Shown piece after piece: positions 11,889 through 48,648 of a stretch of 50,793 nt of DNA (the first letter of the stretch is position 1; the number at the start of each line of letters is the position of its first letter). A program made the position numbers and the translations under genes. The notes under the pieces were generated by a model, which worked only from the letters and a program-made list of their open reading frames with translations, was not told the origin of the DNA and searched no databases. Source of the DNA: a virus; IMG/VR virus record IMGVR_UViG_3300029267_004595, positions 1 to 50,793 of that record; one strand, given 5' to 3'.

Positions 11889-11916
11889 TTGACATAGGCA
11901 CCTAATTCTGTACAAT
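11889..11916 (+). promoter_or_regulatory. Consensus sigma-70 promoter of the ParB-like/modification block
   Basis: TTGACA (11889-11894) is a perfect -35, and TACAAT (11911-11916) is a one-mismatch -10 with a 16-base spacer. Transcription would start near 11923, about 44 bases before the first ParB-like ATG. It is the best consensus promoter found in the window and the arms of a perfect inverted repeat flank its -10 box. Confidence 0.75.
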
Positions 11917-11928
11917 TGCTTAGGTGCC
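11897..11928. promoter_or_regulatory. Operator-like inverted repeat over the promoter
   Basis: GGCACCTAA (11897-11905) and TTAGGTGCC (11920-11928) are perfect 9-base inverted repeats separated by 14 bases. The left arm lies in the -35/-10 spacer and the right arm covers the expected start site, so a dimeric repressor bound here would block the promoter. Centre-to-centre distance is 23 bases, roughly two helical turns. A transcript beginning at about 11923 would contain only part of the right arm, so an RNA hairpin is not the explanation. Confidence 0.65.
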
Positions 11929-11966
11929 ATGGCATTATGTTATTACATGACTATGAGAGCCAAATC

Positions 11967-12794
11967 ATGAAGAAAATCAAACTTTCCTCGCTGGTTTCTT
12001 TGCCTTACAATCCACGCACGATTTCTGATACTGAGTTGGAGTATCTCAAACTCAGTATCAAAGAGCACACCGTAGCTATTCCGCAAAAAGAGCGTGGCAA
12101 AGGTTTTCGACTTGTTACGACAGTAACTGTCAATAAGAATGGTAATCGTGTTGTCGGTGGCAGTCAACGCATCAAAGCATTGGAAGCTCTTGGTCAAGAT
12201 TGGATTCATTCTGATGATATTACATGGGTTGATTTGGAGCCAGATAGCATCCGAGAAAAAGCGTTGAACATTGCTCTGAATAGTGAGAAAGCACAAGGGT
12301 CATGGGATGCTACAAAACTAAACGAAATACTGGGCGATATTAAGCTTGATGATGAAGCATTGTACGAGACACTTGGGTTGTTGCATATTGAACCTCCGAA
12401 GCTTGATATTTCGAAAGGTTTAGAGCACGAGCAAACAACTGAAACAAAATCGGCGGAAAGTTTGGTTGTGAGCTCTGATGTAAAAACAGAAACCACAACA
12501 GGTGTGGTAGGTAGCGAACCAGAGCCCGAGCTTGAGCCAGAGTTTGAACCAGAGCATCAGACTTCTGATATGTTCAAGGGAGATTTGAAGGAAGACGCCG
12601 ATCAACCACCTCCAGATGGCACAACTCCCCTGCCAGAATTGTTTCCTCTTTCGTACGCAGTAACAAAGGATCAACGAAATACTGTTTTGGAAGCTATTCG
12701 GAAAGCGAAACTGGATTTTGAGCTTGATACCAGTGCAAAGGCGTTAGTGAAGATATGTGAACTCTTTTTGTCGGTGGATGACAATGAAAATTAG
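11967..12794 (+). CDS. ParB-like nuclease-fold protein, paralogue 1
   Basis: 275 residues. ATG 11967 is chosen because MKKIKLSSLV aligns with the N-termini of the next two genes; an upstream ATG would begin before the expected transcript start. The ParB/sulfiredoxin core is at 1-110: YNPRTIS, a helix SIKEH, VNKNGNRVVGGSQRIKALEALG, and DDITWVDLEP followed by EKALNIALNSE. The GGSQR replaces the GGHQR seen in paralogues 2 and 3 and the DGHR of classical ParB. Residues 145-225 are a low-complexity acidic linker (EPEPELEPEFEPEH) not present in the other copies. It probably binds DNA or nucleotide rather than partitioning plasmids. Confidence 0.75.
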   Translation: MKKIKLSSLVSLPYNPRTISDTELEYLKLSIKEHTVAIPQKERGKGFRLVTTVTVNKNGNRVVGGSQRIKALEALGQDWIHSDDITWVDLEPDSIREKALNIALNSEKAQGSWDATKLNEILGDIKLDDEALYETLGLLHIEPPKLDISKGLEHEQTTETKSAESLVVSSDVKTETTTGVVGSEPEPELEPEFEPEHQTSDMFKGDLKEDADQPPPDGTTPLPELFPLSYAVTKDQRNTVLEAIRKAKLDFELDTSAKALVKICELFLSVDDNEN

Positions 12795-13431
12795 TGATTT
12801 GCACCCTGTTGATTACAACCCACGCATCATTACAAATGAGCAATTAAAGCGCTTGATGCTATCTATCAAAGAGCACTCTGAAAGTGTGGACAATAAGGCA
12901 CAAGGAATTCGTTTAGCTACGACTATCACAATCAATAAACAAGGAAATCGCATTGTCGGAGGTCACCAAAGAGTTGTTGCCTTACAAGCATTGGGGCAGG
13001 ACTATGTTCATGATGATGACATAACTTGGGTTGATTTGGAACCGGGAAGTCTTCAAGAAAAGACTTTGAATATTGCGCTAAACAGTGAAGATGCAGCTGG
13101 TAGTTACGATTACAAAAAACTTTCTGAGCTGTTGCATGAAATTCATGACGCTGGTTTGAATGTCGATTTGACAGCGTTGGCAGATTATGTAATCGAGCCA
13201 TTAATGGCAGGTACATGGCCAGAAAAGAAGCCGGGTAAAGGTGGTGGAGAAACAGGTCTTGAAGAAGGTCAAGTGTTGATTGAGTTGACGAAAGAGCAGC
13301 GAGAAATGGTAGACAATACAGTTCAGCGTATTCGTATTGTGAAGGATGACGAGGAGCTATCCGAGTCGACTTGTGTGCGAATAGCATGTGAACATTTTTT
13401 GGAGCAGCATAGTGAAGCAAATCAAAATTAG
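12784..13431 (+). CDS. ParB-like nuclease-fold protein, paralogue 2
   Basis: 215 residues; ATG 12784 has GGTGG six bases upstream and gives MKISDLHPVDYNPRIIT, aligned with paralogue 1. The core motif is VGGHQRVVALQALG (about 60-73), then DDITWVDLEP and EKTLNIALNSED. It overlaps paralogue 1 by 11 bases and paralogue 3 by 20. A Gly-rich linker (GKGGGETGLEEGQ) precedes a C-terminal helical domain (ELTKEQREMVDNTVQRIR) that is shared with the other two copies. Confidence 0.75.
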   Translation: MKISDLHPVDYNPRIITNEQLKRLMLSIKEHSESVDNKAQGIRLATTITINKQGNRIVGGHQRVVALQALGQDYVHDDDITWVDLEPGSLQEKTLNIALNSEDAAGSYDYKKLSELLHEIHDAGLNVDLTALADYVIEPLMAGTWPEKKPGKGGGETGLEEGQVLIELTKEQREMVDNTVQRIRIVKDDEELSESTCVRIACEHFLEQHSEANQN

Positions 13432-14044
13432 CACATTGGTAGCGTTGGATTACAACCCGCGCATTATCACTGAAGATGAAATGGAGCGCTTGAAGACTTC
13501 CATCAGAGAGCATACCAATGCATTCCCTTTGGAGGAGCGTAATGGTTATAGACTTGCAACCAGCATTACAGTTAACAGGCAAGGAAATCGTATTGTTGGA
13601 GGCCACCAAAGAGTTAAAGCTTTGGAAGCACTTGGTCAAGACTGGGTACATGAAAATGACATTACGTGGATTAATGTCGAACCAAACAGTGCGAAAGAAA
13701 AAACGCTTAACATAGCACTCAACAGCAAGGATGCTTCAGGTAAGTATGATTTGGAGAAGCTGTCCAACTTGTTGTTTGAACTCAAAGAAGCCAACATAGA
13801 CATTAACGATACGGTTTTGGCACCTGACCTGATTGAAGATTTGACGCTTGAGGATTGGACGCCTCCCGATGCTGTTGATGGAATGTTGGACCAGTTTCAA
13901 ATTGAAAAGCCTAAGCCTTTGATTGTAGACAAGGAAGATTATCCAACAGTTCGCAATGCCATATCAAGAGTGCGAAAAGTCAAACAAGACGGTACACTTT
14001 CTGATGGGATTTGTGTTAGTGTGATTTGCGAGGAAGTGCCATGA
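13412..14044 (+). CDS. ParB-like nuclease-fold protein, paralogue 3 (GTG start)
   Basis: 210 residues. GTG 13412 has GGAG seven bases upstream and gives MKQIKISTLVALDYNPRIIT. The core is VGGHQRVKALEALG, ENDITWINVEP and EKTLNIALNSKD. The C-terminal helix (DKEDYPTVRNAISRVRKV) matches those of paralogues 1 and 2. Its stop overlaps the DpdA-like start (ATGA), so the three ParB-fold genes and the transglycosylase gene are translationally coupled, which argues for a joint role. Confidence 0.75.
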   Translation: MKQIKISTLVALDYNPRIITEDEMERLKTSIREHTNAFPLEERNGYRLATSITVNRQGNRIVGGHQRVKALEALGQDWVHENDITWINVEPNSAKEKTLNIALNSKDASGKYDLEKLSNLLFELKEANIDINDTVLAPDLIEDLTLEDWTPPDAVDGMLDQFQIEKPKPLIVDKEDYPTVRNAISRVRKVKQDGTLSDGICVSVICEEVP

Positions 14045-14886
14045 CAGAAATAGTGCTTGGTCAATCTTTGAAAAAAAGCGAAAGACGGCCTCCTTATCTG
14101 CGTTTGGCTACTGCTACATGGGACTCGACTTCGACTCCTGGTATTGAAAACGCATCAGAGAAACCATCTTTGCTTGTATCGTTTCCTGCGGTAAGAAAGT
14201 TTATGGAGACGAGGGATACGAATACTTATCGGGATTGGGCTATGGATTCTGGTGCATTCTCTGCTTTCAATTCTGGTATGGTAATTGATCTGCAAGAGTA
14301 TATTGAGTTTTGTTTGGAGATAATGGCTACTGATCCGACACTTACAGAAATTTTTGCGTTGGATGTAATTGGTGATTGGAAAGCAAGCATAGTGAATTGT
14401 GAAAAGATGTGGGAAGCAGGTGTGCCAGCAATCCCATGCTATCATACGCGTGAACCAGAACACGCGCTCACACATATCACAAAGACGTACCCTAAAATTG
14501 CATTAGGTGGTTTGGTTGGAATTCCAATGGGACCAAAAGAAGTTGTAGGATGGCTTGAACAGTGTTTTGCTCGTATTTGGCCCAAACGGGTCCATGTATT
14601 TGGAACGACGAGTAAAAGTTATGTGCTTAGATTTCCTGCCAGCTCATGGGATTCTACAAATTGGGTAACAGGACCTTGTGCTTTTGGAAGTTGGAGCCAG
14701 TTCGGAAATTTGAGCGTACGTGGCAGCAAACAAAATTTGCGTAGCGAGGTTGAGTTTTTTCTTGACCTTGAAAATCGTGCTCGTGTCAAGTGGCGTAAGC
14801 AGATGAAAGAGCTCGATGATTTGAACGAACCTCTCCCAGAGTTTTCCAAGAAGGAGAATGTGAATGAGGTCTCCGGCGACACATAA
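14041..14886 (+). CDS. dpdA: DpdA-like DNA tRNA-guanine-transglycosylase-family protein
   Basis: 281 residues. TGT/DpdA-type motifs in order: WAMDSGAFSAF (about 66-76), containing the conserved DSG(A/G)F; FALDVIGD (105-112); AIPCYH; ALGGLVG (154-160), the phosphate-binding glycine motif; VHVFGTTS (184-191); and SSWDSTNW (201-208), the second aspartate region. DpdA replaces guanine in DNA with a 7-deazaguanine base. The tRNA-specific zinc-binding CxCxxC domain of bacterial TGT is absent, as expected for DNA-acting members. The neighbouring queC, queD, queE and folE genes strongly support this call. It overlaps the radical-SAM gene by 23 bases. Confidence 0.8.
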   Translation: MTEIVLGQSLKKSERRPPYLRLATATWDSTSTPGIENASEKPSLLVSFPAVRKFMETRDTNTYRDWAMDSGAFSAFNSGMVIDLQEYIEFCLEIMATDPTLTEIFALDVIGDWKASIVNCEKMWEAGVPAIPCYHTREPEHALTHITKTYPKIALGGLVGIPMGPKEVVGWLEQCFARIWPKRVHVFGTTSKSYVLRFPASSWDSTNWVTGPCAFGSWSQFGNLSVRGSKQNLRSEVEFFLDLENRARVKWRKQMKELDDLNEPLPEFSKKENVNEVSGDT

Positions 14887-16318
14887 TACGATTGTGATTG
14901 ATGTGACTAATGCATGTCCTCTTCAGTGTTCAAACTGTACCCGATTTTGTGGTCACAAAAAACCTGTTTTTATGGACATGGACACGTTCAGAAAAGCAGT
15001 AGATTCGCTTGTTGATCACCCATCTCAAATGGGGCTTTGTGGTGGAGAGCCAACCATTGCTCCTCTCTTTCCTGAGTACATGGACTATCTTGAAAAGACT
15101 ATTGGGCGTGAAAGAAGCTGTCTGTTTACATCGCTAACGAAACAGTATTATGAGTTCTTTGAGCGTATCCAAGAAGTGTTTTGTTTCCAAGGTATCAATG
15201 ATCATAATCATCAAGGTCTTCACACTCCTTTGTTGATTGCGTCTGAAGAATTGCCTATCCCAGAAGAAACGAAGAAAAAGCTGATTGATAATTGCTGGGT
15301 GCAAAACAACTGGTCGGCTTGTGTTACTGTCAAAGGTGCATTCTTTTGTGAAGTCGCTGCTCAGCTTGATTTACTATTTGATGGACCAGGTGGGTGGCCT
15401 ATTGAACCTGGTTGGTGGAAGAGAACGCCAGATGAGTTTGGTGATCAATTAAAGTGGTGCAATATTTGTGGTGCAGCTATGCCTATGCCACGCCGTATAG
15501 CAGTTGAAGAAATTGACGATGTGTCACCAGGTAACTATGAACGGCTTAAGAAATTAGGTTCAGGCAAAATCAAGAAGGGCAAGGTTAAAGTCTTTGATGT
15601 GGGAAAATATAAGATAGAAGACTACAAAGACTGGCACCCTGATGTGGATTGGTTTTTGCCTCCGGATGACCGTTCACGTCGTATTGCTAATGAGTCCAAA
15701 ACAATCAGGCCAAAAAAGTTGGATTGCATATTGGCATGTGATGGGAATCTTCTTGATATTACTCGTTCCCTTGCTGTTAACAGACAGCATTTTGATGACT
15801 TTGTAGTGGTTGTGCCAAATGAAGTTGTGGGGATGGATAGACTTTGCAATGAGCATAACGCTTTGTACATAATATCAGAGTGTTGTATGGAAGAAGACTT
15901 TTTTGACAAAGGTAAAGCCATTAACGATGCTTTAGAGAAATTTACTCCAACTGATTGGATTGTGATAATTGGGTCAAAGATTCGGTTACATGATCGGTTT
16001 GGAAGTCTGATGCGTCAAGAGATTTTGAATCCAGGTTTTCTGTATTGGGAAATTGCTCCAAGCGAAGCTGAACCACTCCATTTCCAGATTGCCATTCCTT
16101 CTATTCAATCTGCTACATGGGATATGTACCATTCCAGTTTTCAGTTGTTCAATGTACGGGCTTCCTCGCTCAAAGGCCGGGGAAAGAAATGGTATCCAGA
16201 AGGTAAAGCAGAACGTGAGGCAGATGGGTTGTTCAGGATTGATTGGTTGCCTTCTAAGAAGTGTATCATTTCTTTGAGTGAAAGGAAGCCCTTATCTTTG
16301 TCTACAGCTTTTGAGTGA
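14864..16318 (+). CDS. Radical SAM enzyme fused to glycosyltransferase-like domain
   Basis: 484 residues. Residues 1-210 are a radical SAM domain: CPLQCSNC (Cys18, Cys22, Cys25) is the CX3CX2C cluster motif and CGGEPT (59-64) the SAM-binding GGE motif. Additional cysteines at about 144, 153, 162, 199 and 202 (ending CNICGAAMPMPRR) could hold an auxiliary cluster. Residues 285-480 resemble a GT-A glycosyltransferase fold (LDCILACDGNLLDITRSL, FDDFVVVVPNE, then FDKGKAINDALEKF and DWIVIIGSKIRL), but the metal-binding DxD position reads GSK. Placed between DpdA and Gat-QueC, it is likely to act on the modified base or its precursor; the reaction is unknown. Confidence 0.75.
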   Translation: MRSPATHNTIVIDVTNACPLQCSNCTRFCGHKKPVFMDMDTFRKAVDSLVDHPSQMGLCGGEPTIAPLFPEYMDYLEKTIGRERSCLFTSLTKQYYEFFERIQEVFCFQGINDHNHQGLHTPLLIASEELPIPEETKKKLIDNCWVQNNWSACVTVKGAFFCEVAAQLDLLFDGPGGWPIEPGWWKRTPDEFGDQLKWCNICGAAMPMPRRIAVEEIDDVSPGNYERLKKLGSGKIKKGKVKVFDVGKYKIEDYKDWHPDVDWFLPPDDRSRRIANESKTIRPKKLDCILACDGNLLDITRSLAVNRQHFDDFVVVVPNEVVGMDRLCNEHNALYIISECCMEEDFFDKGKAINDALEKFTPTDWIVIIGSKIRLHDRFGSLMRQEILNPGFLYWEIAPSEAEPLHFQIAIPSIQSATWDMYHSSFQLFNVRASSLKGRGKKWYPEGKAEREADGLFRIDWLPSKKCIISLSERKPLSLSTAFE

Positions 16319-16331
16319 GGGAGAAATTATG

Positions 16332-17558
16332 ATGTGTAGCATATTCGGAGCTTTTGGTCGTCTTGTAGACGAGAAAAAGTTTTTGAGGCCAATCCAAGAA
16401 CACGCTAAGGACAGAGGTCGTGATGGTGGTCGTATTGAGCGATTTGATTTAGGTGACGAATATTATGCGTTTTTAGGGAACTGGAGAGCAACTCCAACAC
16501 CCGAACTTGAAAAATCGAAATTGCAGCCCTATGATGGCTTAGTGCATAATGGTACTATTGCGAATGATAAAGAGTTGGGTGTAAAACCGGGCGAAATTGA
16601 TACCATGGTTTTGCCTCGCATTCTTGATCGGAATCATGGCGTTGATGCATTTGTTGAGTCGTTGAGAAGAATCAAAGGCTCTTATGCTATTGCATGTACT
16701 GGAAAGGGCACGGTTTTTCTTGCTAACAACTACAAACCGATTCATTATTGGTCGCCCTACGGTGAGGCAATCTACTTTAGTAGTATGGCACGTCATTTTG
16801 AAGAGATTCTTCCGTTTGGGCAAGCTCCTGTGCAACTACCACCCTATACAGTAATGGATTTACGGACTCGTATTGTGCGTGAGATTGAAAGGAAAGATGC
16901 AAAAAGGGCAGTCATTATTGCCAGCGCAGGTTTGGATAGTACGTGTGTAGCAACGAAATTTGTGCGTGATGGTTGGGATGTCTGTTTGTTACACTTCAAG
17001 TATGGTTGCACCGCTCAAACTCGTGAAGCTGCATTGATTCCAAAGATAGCAGAACGTTTGGGTTGTACTTACCATTTTTTGACTGTTGATTATTCCGAGA
17101 TGAAAGGCAACAGTCCGATTCTGTCTAAAGGTAGCAAAATTGCTGATGGGATTGCTGGAGCCGAATTTGCTCATGAATGGGTGCCTGCTCGAAACTTTTT
17201 AATGCTGGCTCATGCAACAGCTTTTGCTGAAGCGAATGGCTATCACTGTATTGCACTTGGAAACAATTTAGAGGAGAGCGGAGCCTATCCCGATAACGAA
17301 GAGCAAATGACAGTGCTGCTCGATAACGTTTTGAATTATGCGGTGTCTGATGGGTACAATTTACGGATAGTTGCTCCGGTTGGTAATTTGATGAAGCATG
17401 AGATTGTAAAGCTTGGTTTGGAACTTGATGCTCCATTTGATGTGACATGGAGTTGCTATCGAGATGAGGAAAAACATTGTGGTGAGTGTGGACCTTGTTT
17501 TATGCGGAAAACAGCTTTTGAACGTAACGGAACAGTTGATCCAGTATTTGCGCAATGA
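16332..17558 (+). CDS. queC: Gat-QueC fusion (class II amidotransferase + 7-cyano-7-deazaguanine synthase)
   Basis: 408 residues. The second of two adjacent ATGs is chosen: it leaves Cys2 as the N-terminal nucleophile of a class II glutamine amidotransferase (MCSIFGAFG) and gives an 8-base Shine-Dalgarno spacing. The amidotransferase domain continues with LVHNGTIAND (about 70-79). Residues 190-408 are QueC: the PP-loop SAGLDST (198-204), GNNLEESGAYPDN, and a C-terminal zinc site CGECGPC. QueC makes preQ0 from 7-carboxy-7-deazaguanine; the Gat-QueC form is known from phages such as 9g that carry amide- or archaeosine-type 7-deazaguanines, so this virus probably makes more than plain preQ0. Confidence 0.9.
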   Translation: MCSIFGAFGRLVDEKKFLRPIQEHAKDRGRDGGRIERFDLGDEYYAFLGNWRATPTPELEKSKLQPYDGLVHNGTIANDKELGVKPGEIDTMVLPRILDRNHGVDAFVESLRRIKGSYAIACTGKGTVFLANNYKPIHYWSPYGEAIYFSSMARHFEEILPFGQAPVQLPPYTVMDLRTRIVREIERKDAKRAVIIASAGLDSTCVATKFVRDGWDVCLLHFKYGCTAQTREAALIPKIAERLGCTYHFLTVDYSEMKGNSPILSKGSKIADGIAGAEFAHEWVPARNFLMLAHATAFAEANGYHCIALGNNLEESGAYPDNEEQMTVLLDNVLNYAVSDGYNLRIVAPVGNLMKHEIVKLGLELDAPFDVTWSCYRDEEKHCGECGPCFMRKTAFERNGTVDPVFAQ

Positions 17559-18388
17559 AAAAGCAAGTTTGTAAAAGGTGTTGGAATGATTGGAAGCAGG
17601 TTTGGCGTTGGCCTGATGATGCTCGCTGGGATGAAGAAGATACTGTTAAATGTCCCGCAGCTGTGATCCCACGTGAAGGCAGTGTACTGGACCATTTGTA
17701 TAATAGTGTTTTGAAGGACCCACCCGATTGGTGTCCCTATCGACTGGAGCATTTAGTGTTATCGGAGCCGAGAATGATTCTTAATGAACATGTTTTCAAA
17801 GATATTCATGTCCGTGAAGACTTCACAATTCTTCTGAACAAGTTCAACTTGCGGGGGGAAGCAGCTGAGGTAGGAGTTCGATGTGGTTATTATGCACAGT
17901 CATTATTGGGTTGTGGCATGATAGAAAAGCTGTATCTAATTGATTGTTGGGATATGTGTGAGGTAGGTGATCCCAGCATCAATTCGGATGAGCTGAGTTT
18001 AGAAGTGATTCGGCATACAGAATATCTGACACGTGAACGATTTGAAGGAAACCCCCGCGTGGAAGTCATCAAAGCATTTTCTGCTGATGCCGCAAGTCAA
18101 TTTCCCAATGGTCATTTTACATTCATTTTCGTTGATGGCGACCACACCTACAAAGGTGTCAAAAAGGATATTGAAACATGGTATCCAAAACTTGCTCCTC
18201 TTGGATTGATAGGTGGGCATGACTACGAGGAATACACGGAGCCTTCTGGTGTCCAAAGAGGAGTGGTTAAGGCAGTCGATGAATTTTGTGCAAGAGAAAA
18301 ACTCAAGATTTATGTTACTCCAGAAGACACGATAGAGCCTATTGTCAAAATTCCTTCATGGATTGTGCAAAAGCCTCAAGGAGGATAG
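17555..18388 (+). CDS. CP-LEH unit fused to SAM-dependent methyltransferase
   Basis: 277 residues. Residues 1-68 are a CP-LEH family unit identical in layout to the 8.4-10 kb array: QVCKRC, VKCPAA, then PPDWCPYRLEHLV. Residues 75-277 are a class I methyltransferase of the Methyltransf_24 type: motif I AAEVGVRCGYYA (103-114), acidic strand end LYLIDCW, and FIFVDGDHTYKGVKKDI near the end. The start overlaps the queC stop (ATGA). The fusion is the only clue to what CP-LEH units do: they may be binding modules for enzymes working on phage DNA or its base precursors. Confidence 0.8.
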   Translation: MKKQVCKRCWNDWKQVWRWPDDARWDEEDTVKCPAAVIPREGSVLDHLYNSVLKDPPDWCPYRLEHLVLSEPRMILNEHVFKDIHVREDFTILLNKFNLRGEAAEVGVRCGYYAQSLLGCGMIEKLYLIDCWDMCEVGDPSINSDELSLEVIRHTEYLTRERFEGNPRVEVIKAFSADAASQFPNGHFTFIFVDGDHTYKGVKKDIETWYPKLAPLGLIGGHDYEEYTEPSGVQRGVVKAVDEFCAREKLKIYVTPEDTIEPIVKIPSWIVQKPQGG

Positions 18389-18390
18389 TA

Positions 18391-19194
18391 ATGGATGCAG
18401 TAACTGCTGTGATGGCAACTTTTCGTGCAGACTATGTAACATTGGGTGCACTACATTGCATTACAAACCAAACCTATCCTCCAATTCGTATTGTTGTATT
18501 GGATGTTAGCAAAGACGGAAATCTTGGGAATAATACAGTGATTGCGGATTATGCTCGTTTTGCTCCAATCGAGATTTATCGTGGTCCAGATATGCTACAC
18601 GCTTATGAGGGCCGAAATTGGTTGGCAATGCAATCAAAGACAGTATGGACATGGTTTGTGGATGATGACTCTTTTGCGAACCATACCTGTCTCAAAAAAC
18701 TTGTGGATGGGGCAGCTCAATATGAGGTGGGAATGGTTGGTGGTGTGAAGCTTGATATCACTCGTCATAAACCATGGGGAGAAGGTGACTGGAATTTGAT
18801 GAATTGTTGTCGCGAGAGAGATGTCCAAATGCCATGGTGTGATACTGCTTGTTGTTTGGTAAAAACTAAAGAGTGGATAGCTAATTGCGATGGCTACGAA
18901 TCAATTTCTGGAGAGACTGGCGAGGATGTTTATGTTACTGCTCGTATAGCCGAAAAGGTTGGTTGTGTTGGGATACATGATGCAATTTGTTACCATGTGC
19001 CAATGGCTGGAAAAGAGTCAACATGGACTGAAAAAATCTCGTCAAGTGATAAGCGAGTAATCGAGCAACTCAAAGACAAAGTACCAGGTGAACATTTGAA
19101 ATGGCTTGAAAGTACTCTGTTACTGAGGCAACAACCAGGTTCAGTAATTATGGAGGATATGGAATGTCCCGCAGAAGGCTCAGGAGAAAGCTGA
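18391..19194 (+). CDS. GT2-family glycosyltransferase
   Basis: 267 residues; ATG 18391 follows AAGGAGGATAGTA. The N-terminus VTAVMATFRADYVTLGALHC is the nucleotide-sugar-binding strand-helix of a GT-A fold, FVDDDS (about 90-95) carries the DxD metal site, and GEDVYVTARIAEKVG near residue 180 is the acceptor/ED motif region. Unlike the upstream fusion protein, the DxD is intact. In this operon it may transfer a sugar to the modified DNA base; acting on a structural protein or host surface is an alternative. Confidence 0.75.
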   Translation: MDAVTAVMATFRADYVTLGALHCITNQTYPPIRIVVLDVSKDGNLGNNTVIADYARFAPIEIYRGPDMLHAYEGRNWLAMQSKTVWTWFVDDDSFANHTCLKKLVDGAAQYEVGMVGGVKLDITRHKPWGEGDWNLMNCCRERDVQMPWCDTACCLVKTKEWIANCDGYESISGETGEDVYVTARIAEKVGCVGIHDAICYHVPMAGKESTWTEKISSSDKRVIEQLKDKVPGEHLKWLESTLLLRQQPGSVIMEDMECPAEGSGES

Positions 19195-19497: not shown

Positions 19498-19827
19498 ATG
19501 TATCGTGTTACTAAGCGTTGTGAAGTAGCGGGAGCACACAAGCTTGATTTGCCTTACGAATCCAAGTGCAACATATTGCACGGACATAATTGGATCATTT
19601 CGGTTACTTGTGAGGCAGAAGAACTTAACGATTGTGGCATGGTTGTCGATTTTACAGAAATCAAAAAAATTGTGAACCAGCTTGACCATGTCAACCTGAA
19701 CGGGGTTCTTATTGGGCTTCGTCCAACGGCAGAGAATATCGCTAAATGGATATGTGACCAAGTACCGAATTGTGTTAAAGTCGTGGTCCAAGAGTCGGAG
19801 GGGAATGTTGCATGCTATACAAAATAA
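19498..19827 (+). CDS. queD: 6-carboxy-5,6,7,8-tetrahydropterin synthase QueD
   Basis: 109 residues with TAGGAGGAGCGAC upstream of the ATG. Zinc histidines are in AGAHKL (about 11-16) and LHGHNW (about 28-33); the catalytic cysteine is in SKCNILHGH. GMVVDFTEIKK, LDHVNLN, PTAENIAKWI and VQESEGNVACY match QueD throughout, and the length fits the single-domain bacterial enzyme (about 110-120 residues). It converts 7,8-dihydroneopterin triphosphate, the FolE product, to carboxytetrahydropterin, the second step to preQ0. It overlaps queE by 16 bases. Confidence 0.95.
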   Translation: MYRVTKRCEVAGAHKLDLPYESKCNILHGHNWIISVTCEAEELNDCGMVVDFTEIKKIVNQLDHVNLNGVLIGLRPTAENIAKWICDQVPNCVKVVVQESEGNVACYTK

Positions 19828-20384
19828 CTGAGAAATTCTATTCAGTGCAAGGTGAGGGTTTTTGGGCAGGAACTCCAACCTATTTTTTGCGTTTGACTGG
19901 TTGTAATCTGAATTGTGATTTTTGTGACACAGTGCAACGCAATACAGTCAATGAAGAATTGACGGAGCAACAAATTTTTGAAGCTGCTTGCAAAGAATGC
20001 AAAAACAGGCGACTGACAATTACTGGTGGTGAACCAACATTGCAGGAATTGGGACCGCTGGTCACATTGTTCAAAAATAACGATTGGTATATTGCCATTG
20101 AAACCAATGGTACGAATATAAATGCAATTCCAGCAGGAATTGATTGGGTTACTGTGTCTCCAAAACCAAAGGTAGATTATTCGAAGCTCTCAATTATTCA
20201 TGGTAATGAATTGAAAGTGGTTATGGATGGCGTGATTGATCCCGCAAAATTTCGCAGTACGAATTTCGATCACTTTTTTATCCAACCTTGTTCAGAGAAC
20301 TTCAAACCAGCAGCTGAGTTTGTGTTAGCCAACCCTGGTTGGCGTTTGAGCGTTCAGATTCATAAAGTGATAGGAGTGCTCTGA
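19812..20384 (+). CDS. queE: 7-carboxy-7-deazaguanine synthase QueE
   Basis: 190 residues, a compact radical SAM enzyme. The cluster motif is CNLNCDFC (CX3CX2C, about residues 31-38), followed by ITGGEPTLQ, the IAIETNGT strand, VSPKPK and NELKVV, all diagnostic of QueE. The N-terminal SVQGEGFWAGTP loop is also typical. It ring-contracts carboxytetrahydropterin to 7-carboxy-7-deazaguanine for QueC. The ATG lies inside the queD end and its stop overlaps the next ATG, giving a coupled queD-queE-folE unit. Confidence 0.95.
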   Translation: MLYKITEKFYSVQGEGFWAGTPTYFLRLTGCNLNCDFCDTVQRNTVNEELTEQQIFEAACKECKNRRLTITGGEPTLQELGPLVTLFKNNDWYIAIETNGTNINAIPAGIDWVTVSPKPKVDYSKLSIIHGNELKVVMDGVIDPAKFRSTNFDHFFIQPCSENFKPAAEFVLANPGWRLSVQIHKVIGVL

Positions 20385-21253
20385 TGGTTAGCGAAAAGTA
20401 TAAGATGACGTGGGCAGAAGTTTATAGCAGAATAGAAAACAGTATCCCAAAAGGTAAAAAGTGTTTTGGGATTCCGAGAGGGGGATTTTTTGTTGCTGCT
20501 GCGACAGGTAATGCAGTTGGAACACCAGAGGAAGCTGAAATCCTTGTGGATGATTTGACCGACTCTGGTCGTACCCGTAAGTATTGGAAGGAAAAATATC
20601 CTAATAAGCCATTTCATGTCTTGTTGGACAAAGAAAAAGAAGGCTTAAAAGGACATTGGATTATCTTTCCGTGGGAGACAGATGAGGAGACTGGAGGGAC
20701 TGGGGGGCCAACAGATGCTGTAGTGCGTTTGTTGCAGTGGATTGGTGAGAATCCAACACGTGATGGTTTGATCGATACTCCAGCACGGGTAGTCAAAGCT
20801 TGGCAAGAAATGACAGCGGGATATCATGAAGACCCAGAAGAGATTCTTGGTAAGTCGTTTGAGGTTGATCATGATGAAATGATTGCTCTTAAAGGAATAC
20901 GGTTTACGTCGCTTTGTGAGCATCACGTATTGCCTTTTAGCGGGATTTGTGCTGTTGGCTATTTGCCCAAAAAGCGTGTTGTGGGAATTTCAAAGCTGGC
21001 TCGTGTTGTTCAGACATTTGCAAAACGCTTGCAAATTCAAGAACGTCTAACACAAGAAATTGCAGAGGCGATTCAAAAGCATGTAGATACAGAAGGTGTG
21101 GGAGTTGTGATTAAAGCGACCCATAGCTGTATGGCTTGTAGAGGAGCGTTACAACCTGATGCTGAGATGGTTACTTCGTGCTTGTTGGGTGAGATGAGAG
21201 ATTCACCTGTTGCTCGTCAAGAGCTACTTTACTTGCTTGACATTAACAGGTAA
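20384..21253 (+). CDS. folE: Phosphoribosyltransferase-GTP cyclohydrolase I fusion
   Basis: 289 residues. Residues 1-100 are a phosphoribosyltransferase-like domain: FGIPRGGFFVAA (28-39) and a PRPP-binding motif ILVDDLTDSGRT (53-64). After a Gly/Thr linker (about 103-109), residues 110-289 are GTP cyclohydrolase I: WIGENPTRDGLIDTPARV, the zinc/active-site SLCEHHVLPF (Cys178, His180, His181) and HSCMACRG (Cys249, Cys252). FolE supplies dihydroneopterin triphosphate for the QueD step. The extra domain may feed a purine base plus PRPP toward the nucleotide pool next to the cyclohydrolase. Last + strand gene of the modification block. Confidence 0.85.
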   Translation: MVSEKYKMTWAEVYSRIENSIPKGKKCFGIPRGGFFVAAATGNAVGTPEEAEILVDDLTDSGRTRKYWKEKYPNKPFHVLLDKEKEGLKGHWIIFPWETDEETGGTGGPTDAVVRLLQWIGENPTRDGLIDTPARVVKAWQEMTAGYHEDPEEILGKSFEVDHDEMIALKGIRFTSLCEHHVLPFSGICAVGYLPKKRVVGISKLARVVQTFAKRLQIQERLTQEIAEAIQKHVDTEGVGVVIKATHSCMACRGALQPDAEMVTSCLLGEMRDSPVARQELLYLLDINR

Positions 21254-46695: not shown

Positions 46696-47463
46696 ATGAG
46701 TAAGAGCCTTGAAGCAGAAATCCAAGCTCTTGAGCAGAGACTTGGTGTGGTGCCAATGTACAGAAGGCGTCGTCGTTCACAGCCAATTCTTGAAGAGGAG
46801 GTGCTTGAAGAGCCAATCGTTGAAGAAGAGGAAATGGGTCTTGAAGAGGAAATTGCTCAACTTGAAGATCAGCTATCACAAGATGAAGATATTATGGAAT
46901 ATGCTCAAGATGAGTCTCCTCTGGAAACACAAGAAGAGCTGGAAGACATTGCCGAAGACATTGTTGATGAAGACGCTGATGTGATTGAAGAAAGCGTCGG
47001 AGAGGGTGATATAGGGTTATTGGAATCAGGAGAAGATCAAAACACAAAAATTTCTCGGCAATTGATTCGTTTGGCTGAAATGCTCGAATCACAAACCGAA
47101 GAAGAAGAGGCGGAAATTGCACAAGATGAAGAACCAGTTGGAGAGTTAATGCATCAAGATTTGGATGTGGTGGAAAAGATTGTTGATTCCCCCTCAACAG
47201 ATTCTGGTGAAGGCGGAGATGTTCTTCCTGTAGTTAAAGAAGAAACGGAAGTTTCTGAGAAGGATGTCACTGCCAGCGATGAAATCAAGTATGCTTCGCG
47301 GTTGAAAGAGGCATCACACCGTTTGGATCGTGTTTCCAGCTATCTTGAAAAGAAGGGTGGCAAGTGGGTCAAGATTGCTTATCGTCTGGACAAGCTTGCT
47401 GATGCGATAGACGGTGAACGTAGAGTAGTTGCGAAGCGGGTCGCCTCCCGGCTTGTTTCGTAA
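46696..47463 (+). CDS. Acidic scaffold-like protein
   Basis: 255 residues; GAAAGGAGTGTGTAG precedes the ATG. A short basic patch (YRRRRRSQ) is followed by about 130 mostly acidic residues (EEEVLEEPIVEEEEMGLEEE). Amphipathic islands interrupt the acid runs: SRQLIRLAEMLES and, near the C-terminus, WVKIAYRLDKLADAI and VVAKRVASRLVS. Acidic, low-complexity proteins just before the capsid gene are typical internal scaffolds; that role is inferred. Confidence 0.55.
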   Translation: MSKSLEAEIQALEQRLGVVPMYRRRRRSQPILEEEVLEEPIVEEEEMGLEEEIAQLEDQLSQDEDIMEYAQDESPLETQEELEDIAEDIVDEDADVIEESVGEGDIGLLESGEDQNTKISRQLIRLAEMLESQTEEEEAEIAQDEEPVGELMHQDLDVVEKIVDSPSTDSGEGGDVLPVVKEETEVSEKDVTASDEIKYASRLKEASHRLDRVSSYLEKKGGKWVKIAYRLDKLADAIDGERRVVAKRVASRLVS

Positions 47464-47502
47464 ATTGAACTCAATTAGAAACCTAAAAAGGAGGTATTGC
47501 AA

Positions 47503-48648
47503 ATGGCAAGAGTTCGTTTAACAGACAGGCGGCACCCGAAGAATCGCAAGGGTGCGGAGGCGGTGCCATACCCAGGGATGGTCGGGCAACCAGACCGAAC
47601 GTTTGAACCGGATGATAAGTACGATAATTACGTCGAAGAGCCTGGTTGGGAGCTTCAAGAAAAACCGACCAAGTTCGACGACGCACGTGATGAGATTGGT
47701 TTTCCGGTTATGAAGAAAGCAACTATTGCAAAGGTTCGAAGTGCTGCTGCTAAAGCTGTGAAATTGGCTGTTTATTTCCTTGGTGACAAATCACCGGAAG
47801 AAACAGTTGAGGAGCAGGCTAAGGATTTTATGCGTCTGGGCACGAAAGGTCTTGACAATGCGTTAAAGCGCTATGCTGATACTGCTGAGCTTTACGCACA
47901 AGATGAAGAGGAAGAAAAGAAGGAAGAGGAAGAGACTGAAGCTAAGAAAAAGTCTCAAGACGAAGAAGAAAAGAAAGAGGAAGCTCAAGATGAAGAGGAA
48001 AAGAAGAAGAAGGCGACAGAGATCAAGGAGCTTTTGACCAGAGCACATGAACTTTTGTCTCAAGATGAAGAGGAAGAAAAGAAGGAAGAGGAAGCTCAGG
48101 ACGAAGAGGAAAAGACATCTAAAGAGACATGCAAGTCACAAGATGAAGAGGAAGAAAAGAAAGAAGAGGAAGAGACTGAGGCTAAGAAAAAGTCTCAAGA
48201 CGAAGAGGAAGCTCAAGACGAAGAAGAGACTGAAGCTAAGAAAAAGTCTCAAGACGAAGAAGAAAAGAAAGAGGAAGCTCAGGACGAAGAGGAAACCGAA
48301 AGTCGTAAGGCTGAGCTTGATATTGAATTGGCCGCTCCGGAAGGCGAGATAGTAATGAGTGAAAATGATGAAAAGCTACTCGCCAAACTGTATGAGGCTG
48401 AAGAAACTGAAGAGAAGTCTCAGGACGAAGAGGAAAAGAAGGAAGAAGAGACTGAAGCTAAGAAAAAGTCTCAAGATGAAGAGGAAAAGAAGGAAGAAGC
48501 TCAGGATGAAGAGGAAAAGAAGAAGAAAGCCAGCAAGAAGGGTGTTCAAAAGCTTGGTGGTCAACCAAAGGTTGCTTCTTCTGAAAAGAGCTTGAATCTC
48601 TCCGACCTGTGGAATTCTGCTCCAAGCATGGAAGAGATTTGGAAGTAA
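47503..48648 (+). CDS. Glu/Lys-repeat scaffold-like protein
   Basis: 381 residues. ATG 47503 is preferred over TTG 47497 because AAAGGAGG lies nine bases upstream of it. Residues 1-55 are neutral and folded (GAEAVPYPGMVGQPDRTFEP), 70-120 are helical (AAAKAVKLAVYFLGDKSPEE), and residues 130-345 are tandem units built from SQDEEEKKEE and ETEAKKK. The C-terminal 35 residues are folded again. Highly acidic repeats before the capsid gene suggest a scaffold or an internal protein that is cleaved and expelled. The repeats also make this gene prone to length change. Confidence 0.55.
   Translation: MARVRLTDRRHPKNRKGAEAVPYPGMVGQPDRTFEPDDKYDNYVEEPGWELQEKPTKFDDARDEIGFPVMKKATIAKVRSAAAKAVKLAVYFLGDKSPEETVEEQAKDFMRLGTKGLDNALKRYADTAELYAQDEEEEKKEEEETEAKKKSQDEEEKKEEAQDEEEKKKKATEIKELLTRAHELLSQDEEEEKKEEEAQDEEEKTSKETCKSQDEEEEKKEEEETEAKKKSQDEEEAQDEEETEAKKKSQDEEEKKEEAQDEEETESRKAELDIELAAPEGEIVMSENDEKLLAKLYEAEETEEKSQDEEEKKEEETEAKKKSQDEEEKKEEAQDEEEKKKKASKKGVQKLGGQPKVASSEKSLNLSDLWNSAPSMEEIWK
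47905..48535 (+). repeat. In-frame tandem repeats encoding acidic units
   Basis: Units around aagtctcaagacgaagaag and gaggaagctcaagatgaag recur many times with small changes of order and length, all preserving the SQDEEE / AQDEEE / TEAKKK reading. Third-position variation (gaa/gag, gac/gat) shows the repeats are selected at protein level rather than being recent copies. Confidence 0.7.

Follow-up and report, generated by a model that had tools for sequence, protein, structure and literature searches.

Organisation of the locus

The window, as the whole stretch of DNA analysed here is called (positions 1 to 50,793 of viral record IMGVR_UViG_3300029267_004595; 50,793 nt), contains a gene in which a radical SAM domain is followed by a glycosyltransferase (GT)-A-like domain (Table 1). 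The initial annotation had proposed that both halves belong to a single polypeptide, and the open reading frame is intact over its entire length. The gene lies in an operon that contains all five genes of the phage 9g type dG+ operon (dpdA, gat-queC, queD, queE and folE).

Table 1 Features of the fusion gene and of the operon that surrounds it (window coordinates)
Feature	Position	Strand	Basis
DpdA-like DNA transglycosylase	14026..14886	+	phrog_887 E=1.6e-30; 3′ end overlaps fusion gene start by 23 nt
Fusion gene, radical SAM/pseudo-GT-A, 484 aa	14864..16318	+	One uninterrupted ORF
Radical SAM domain and twitch-like region, residues 1 to about 265	14864..15658	+	Pfam; AF2/Foldseek
CX3CX2C, C18, C22, C25 (SAM-binding [4Fe-4S])	14915..14938	+	Invariant, alignment A1
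GGEP motif, residues 60-63 (G60-G61-E62-P63)	15041..15052	+	Invariant, alignment A1
Putative auxiliary-cluster (twitch) cysteines C144, C162, C199, C202	15293..15469	+	Invariant, alignment A1; cluster predicted
GT-A-like domain, residues 278-468, predicted inactive	15695..16267	+	HMM; AF2; Foldseek
Former DxD site, now G370-S371-K372	15971..15979	+	Alignment A2; codons; motif survey
N389-P390-G391, kept in nearly all fused members, with or without DxD	16028..16036	+	Motif survey
Gat-QueC, class II amidotransferase N-terminus MCSIFG and QueC	16329..17558	+	PF06508 E=5e-49; 10 nt 3′ of fusion gene
Methyltransf_24 protein (MT24), family accompanying radical SAM elsewhere	17555..18388	+	PF13578 E=3e-16; cluster
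GT2 glycosyltransferase, intact acidic motif VDDDSF	18391..19194	+	PF00535 E=1e-7
queD, queE, folE, completing the deazaguanine pathway	19498..21253	+	Profile search

None of the known or related dG+ operons examined contains the radical SAM fusion, MT24 or GT2, whereas the window has all three. In the two related loci L108 and L109, whose gat-queC is 59% identical to that of the window, dpdA abuts gat-queC and gat-queC abuts queD without any of the three genes, and four isolate dG+ operons are likewise without extra radical SAM, GT or methyltransferase genes. Comparison with these operons therefore indicates that the fusion gene entered the window operon as one insertion and MT24 and GT2, with a small ORF at 19164, as a second. 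All three inserted genes belong to types found with the radical SAM gene at other loci, which argues for their acting together. The GT2 gene has the intact acidic motif that the initial annotation had noted in it. Close viral relatives were limited to one for the window MT24 (30%), and none were found for GT2.

A foreign-DNA signature was rejected for the fusion gene, as its GC content and codon-position GC are uniform with the rest of the operon, and a PADLOC scan gave no defence-system match. Three tandem ParB-like genes (11916-14044) are located directly 5′ of dpdA, the third, which was the one scanned, with PHROG ParB/DNA-methyltransferase matches and the other two of similar appearance by sequence; since one ParB-like gene is also present just 5′ of dpdA in L108 and L109, the link between ParB and dpdA may be functional. 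FolE (20384-21253) carries an extra N-terminal stretch of ~100 aa that is phosphoribosyltransferase-like (phrog_8995, E=1.6e-6) and common to the FolE of L108 and L109 (52% identity from residue 25). Elsewhere in the window, two very acidic proteins are encoded at 46696-48648, the second of which (47497-48648) is rich in QDEEEEKKEEE-type repeats and lies near structural genes.

The operon itself suggests DNA-glycan hypermodification, in which dG+ would be made by DpdA and Gat-QueC, a sugar would be added by GT2, and tailoring would be carried out by MT24 (methylation) and the radical SAM enzyme (oxidation or epimerisation), with the dead GT half helping to dock the modified base. The placement of the fusion gene between dpdA (23 nt overlap) and gat-queC (10 nt gap) and of MT24 and GT2 between gat-queC and queD is consistent with this, as are the absence of all three genes from L108, L109 and the four isolate operons, and the known production of dG+ in DNA by Gat-QueC plus DpdA (PMC6884629). 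However, the arrangement is confined to one genome, with no other phage of the radical SAM family having deazaguanine genes nearby, and no glycosylated 7-deazaguanine DNA base is reported in those portions of the literature that our search covered. We regard this explanation as unlikely, while still a candidate.

The radical SAM half has a predicted fold resembling twitch dehydrogenases

The radical SAM domain proposed in the initial annotation is well founded: C18, C22 and C25 of the CX3CX2C motif and the four residues of the GGEP motif do not vary across 24 relatives (alignment A1), and Pfam Radical_SAM matched the fusion protein with E=3e-5 (24.7 bits, under the curated cut-off of 29.5 bits). 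The protein has CX3CX2C and GGE within a predicted radical SAM fold, the combination by which the superfamily is recognised. Four further cysteines (C144, C162, C199 and C202) are also invariant in the 24 relatives, while N112/H114/H120, CWxQ and a WPIEPGWW segment show little or no variation. Such a set of four cysteines would be required for a twitch-type auxiliary cluster, and this part of the protein is thus described as twitch-like, with cluster binding a prediction from sequence.

An AlphaFold2 model of the whole fusion protein, built from a 25-sequence alignment, had a pLDDT of 83.9 and a pTM of 0.83. Searching the PDB with this model using Foldseek gave SpeY (7wzv, by its title a dehydrogenase of the twitch radical SAM class) as the top match with E=1.2e-6, followed by sugar-nucleotide enzymes. 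A profile of alignment A1 made weak contact with SpeY and BtrN (E 0.15-0.3), which is not significant, and the likeness is one of fold only. SpeY and BtrN, twitch dehydrogenases of aminoglycoside biosynthesis, resemble the fusion protein in having a radical SAM core and a four-cysteine auxiliary-cluster region; unlike it, they have no GT domain and belong to antibiotic pathways. None of the NCBIfam radical SAM profiles scored above its curated cut-off, the best being TIGR04317 (31 bits against a cut-off of 380), and the top-scoring profiles were those of peptide or cofactor maturases, all far under cut-off.

The GT-A half has lost its catalytic motifs

Although the C-terminal half alone had no match in Pfam, an HMM built from the GT halves of five other viral fused proteins matched it at residues 278-395 and 425-468 (sequence E=7.8e-29). 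Modelled in isolation with AlphaFold2, this half gave a pLDDT of 82.6 and a pTM of 0.80, and its Foldseek matches, at TM-scores of about 0.3-0.5, were to the GT-A/nucleotide-diphospho-sugar-transferase superfold, including CMP-NeuAc synthetase (E=5.5e-6), glucosyl-3-phosphoglycerate synthase (E=2.6e-4) and IspD. The model, the structural matches and the homology to DxD-bearing viral GT halves all assign the half to the GT-A fold; its failure to show such a fold, which the initial annotation had named as the result that would count against it, was therefore not observed.

The DxD column of alignment A2 reads D-A-D in the five other viral fused proteins (L002 and L030-L033) and in stand-alone phage GTs, and G370-S371-K372 in the window, a substitution that the codons confirm and that had been read correctly at the outset. 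At its C-terminal end, the window GT half is shortened as well, lacking both VH(I/L)xHG and NWxGR, motifs common to the viral relatives. No trace of either motif was found in other frames up to gat-queC, and there is no frameshift remnant downstream. A frameshift or assembly error as the cause of the missing C-terminus was rejected on this ground, and also because independent bacterial genomes show the same loss.

A motif survey was carried out on 28 fused members, comprising the window, the five other viral forms and 22 sampled bacterial forms. All five of the other viral forms retain both DxD and VH(I/L)xHG, whereas the histidine motif is absent from 22/22 bacterial forms and DxD from 21/22, with the window protein lacking both. 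NPG is kept in nearly all of the 28 members; with the catalytic motifs gone and NPG kept, the GT domain appears to have been retained as a fold. Pfam Glycos_transf_2 does match DxD-bearing relatives (L032, E=8e-7). Some GT-A enzymes are metal-independent and function without DxD, a point against inactivity of the domain. The window GT half has neither the DxD nor the C-terminal histidine motif seen in its intact relatives; because DxD reads GSK and VH(I/L)xHG is missing, it is not classed as an active GT and is very probably a dead glycosyltransferase domain. The GT-A fold is held in common with GT2/GT81-type enzymes such as glucosyl- and mannosyl-3-phosphoglycerate synthases, from which the window protein differs in having GSK at the DxD site, in missing the C-terminal motif and in being fused to a radical SAM enzyme. 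Binding of substrate by the degenerate domain, as first suggested in the initial annotation, is plausible.

The degenerate and shortened GT half, in the same state as that of the bacterial forms, is also what might be seen in a passenger, that is, a decaying gene that came from a polysaccharide cluster of bacteria and currently serves no function. We consider this highly unlikely, as all of the invariant radical SAM residues are kept in an intact frame, the gene matches the base composition of its operon (GC and codon-position GC) and is tightly coupled to dpdA and gat-queC, and structure prediction still returns a high-confidence fold for the dead GT half.

The fused proteins form a single clade

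The fused forms all grouped together when 92 radical SAM domains were placed in a tree, such that the fused/not-fused label requires one change. A focused tree supported the fusion clade, which contains the window, the five viral forms with both motifs and the 22 sampled bacterial forms, with bootstrap 100 and SH-aLRT 100. The initial annotation had allowed that the fusion might be accidental and its reading frame interrupted in relatives; the full-length architecture recurs in both viruses and bacteria, far beyond chance, and the fusion is not accidental. The fusion had also been thought undescribed, which holds for the literature searched, but it is widespread in sequence data, and loss of DxD is the rule among its bacterial members.

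The window branches near the base of the clade with weak support (92/54). In the best tree, the window lost its GT motifs separately from the bacteria; under an AU test, however, monophyly of the intact forms is not rejected (p=0.189), and for this reason repeated independent loss of the GT motifs is likely but unproven.

The wider radical SAM family is accompanied by sugar-modifying genes

Scans detected the radical SAM family at no fewer than 110 viral loci (>=110) and at 26 bacterial loci. Among 50,697 isolate phage records, tblastn with the window protein or a stand-alone radical SAM protein found no relative, nor did the intact GT half when used as the query. The family is large and undescribed, with no apparent presence in isolated phages; its viral members are mostly stand-alone radical SAM proteins, about 300 aa in length. 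Genes of the relatives were called mechanically as the longest non-overlapping ORFs, most viral records being fragments, and neighbours were labelled with in-house HMM clusters that were spot-checked with Pfam and PHROGs.

A GT gene was present within 2 kb of the radical SAM gene at 56/66 dereplicated viral loci, a Methyltransf_24 gene at 33/66 and a sugar epimerase gene at 13/66, and every one of these neighbours is on the same strand as the radical SAM gene (121/121). GT density fell about forty-fold with distance, from 0.356/kb at 0-1.5 kb to 0.008/kb at 5-8 kb; as the GT and methyltransferase models were built from clusters located anywhere in the loci, this decay serves as a control. By comparison, none of the 66 dereplicated viral loci has 7-deazaguanine genes near the radical SAM gene, so that the same fusion beside queC/dpdA, for which the initial annotation had proposed a search, was not found in other phages. 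In 50 whole records with a radical SAM gene, QueC and DpdA each exceeded the cut-off once (1/50), neither of them near the radical SAM gene. This scarcity indicates that the family is not a deazaguanine family and that one phage has combined the two.

These partners bear on the initial proposal of a carbon-centred change on the DNA base, for which the case is now weak: the consistent neighbours are GT, MT24 and nucleotide-sugar genes, and not queC/dpdA. Direct action of the radical SAM enzyme on the 7-deazaguanine base is kept as an option because of the position of the fusion gene in this one genome, and the pathway already uses radical SAM chemistry through QueE, which has its fold and operon in common with the fusion protein. 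QueE is encoded by a separate gene (19812-20384) with its own family match (phrog_2076), a family that the fusion protein does not match. Members of the radical SAM family, however, occur with sugar genes in phages and bacteria that have no deazaguanine pathway nearby, which makes base chemistry very improbable.

Many of the viral radical SAM/GT modules are located between the major head protein gene and head-tail adaptor or tail genes. In L042, L046, L051, L053, L055, L056, L059-L063, L075 and L104, all uncultured phages, the major head protein and head-tail adaptor genes flank a GT gene, in some cases an epimerase gene, and the radical SAM gene. The target of such modules could be a virion protein. 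A peptide or protein maturase (of the SPASM/twitch RiPP type, or modifying side chains) whose GT-like half bound the protein destined for glycosylation would fit this capsid-tail placement and the nearest NCBIfam profiles by score, distant as these are; against it, no precursor peptide was recognised, the neighbours are sugar enzymes and the best fold match is a twitch dehydrogenase of an aminoglycoside pathway, and we hold a maturase to be very unlikely.

Other members of the family are linked to the same partners in different ways. The radical SAM gene is followed directly by a separate gene for the same GT type in L077, L105 and L106, giving a split version; a second kind of fusion, of radical SAM and a Methyltransf_24-type methyltransferase, forms one 489 aa ORF in L047 (7989-9458); and a 976-aa protein in L033 (6490-9420) combines radical SAM, an intact GT-A half and an apparent further C-terminal GT-like region. 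The bacterial fused forms are found in surface-polysaccharide clusters, adjoining UDP-sugar dehydrogenase, nucleotidyltransferase, epimerase, GT2 and GT8 genes. In L011-L024 (Lachnospiraceae and relatives), many fused proteins have a third, C-terminal Rossmann-like domain, with a weak match to UDP-D-quinovosamine 4-dehydrogenase (3nkl, E=0.002) and, in L023, to PF22674 (E=1.5e-4).

Proposed function and implications

We infer the substrate class, the reaction type and the role of the dead GT domain from the fusion, fold, motif loss, partner genes and insertion that sequence and structure prediction reveal. The explanation that we favour, and judge on balance just probable, is that the fusion protein is a twitch-class radical SAM enzyme akin to BtrN and SpeY, which carries out an oxidation or epimerisation at a sugar carbon while the dead GT domain presents the substrate. 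The SpeY fold match and the sugar-gene partners make abstraction from a sugar C-H, leading to oxidation or epimerisation, the most likely chemistry. The SpeY reaction takes place at an alcohol of the spectinomycin skeleton, and the closest solved folds to the fusion protein act on sugar or aminocyclitol alcohols. BtrN catalyses the two-electron oxidation of an aminocyclitol alcohol and has a four-Cys auxiliary cluster that is the likely electron acceptor (PMC9012708, PMC6231123). Against the sugar substrate, the TM-scores behind the SpeY/BtrN fold link are modest (0.31-0.52), sequence relations and fold do not predict reaction or substrate in the twitch/SPASM group (PMC6231123), none of the window genes was recognised as a nucleotide-sugar gene, and the window operon is one for DNA modification, so that a DNA target would suit it better than a surface glycan.

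In the proposed sugar-editing mechanism, the substrate would be a sugar, presented as a glycan or a glycosylated acceptor, from whose C-H the 5′-deoxyadenosyl radical would abstract a hydrogen. A BtrN/SpeY-type auxiliary cluster would then accept a second electron to yield a keto sugar or, alternatively, the radical would be re-quenched to yield an epimer. The GT-A domain may have started as a catalytically active partner of the radical SAM enzyme in sugar transfer; after loss of DxD and of the C-terminal histidine motif, it would now be non-catalytic, holding a nucleotide-sugar or glycan and presenting it to the radical site. Active transfer would fall to the separate GT2, and methylation to MT24, within the same operon. 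In this phage the fusion/MT24/GT2 set was inserted into a dG+ operon, and its acceptor may be a virion or host glycan, or modified DNA.

If DNA is the acceptor, the operon would produce a glycan-bearing deazaguanine in DNA and encode a radical SAM enzyme that edits DNA sugars; with the module spliced into a DNA-modification operon, the presence of a sugar on 7-deazaguanine DNA is directly testable. For the family as a whole, the fused clade provides a natural series from an active to a dead GT domain, and there are three physical linkages, namely radical SAM-GT fusion, radical SAM-methyltransferase fusion and adjacent genes. The consistent packaging of the radical SAM gene with GT, methyltransferase and epimerase genes, seen both in uncultured phages and in the coat-polysaccharide clusters of bacteria, points to radical glycan editing by viruses.
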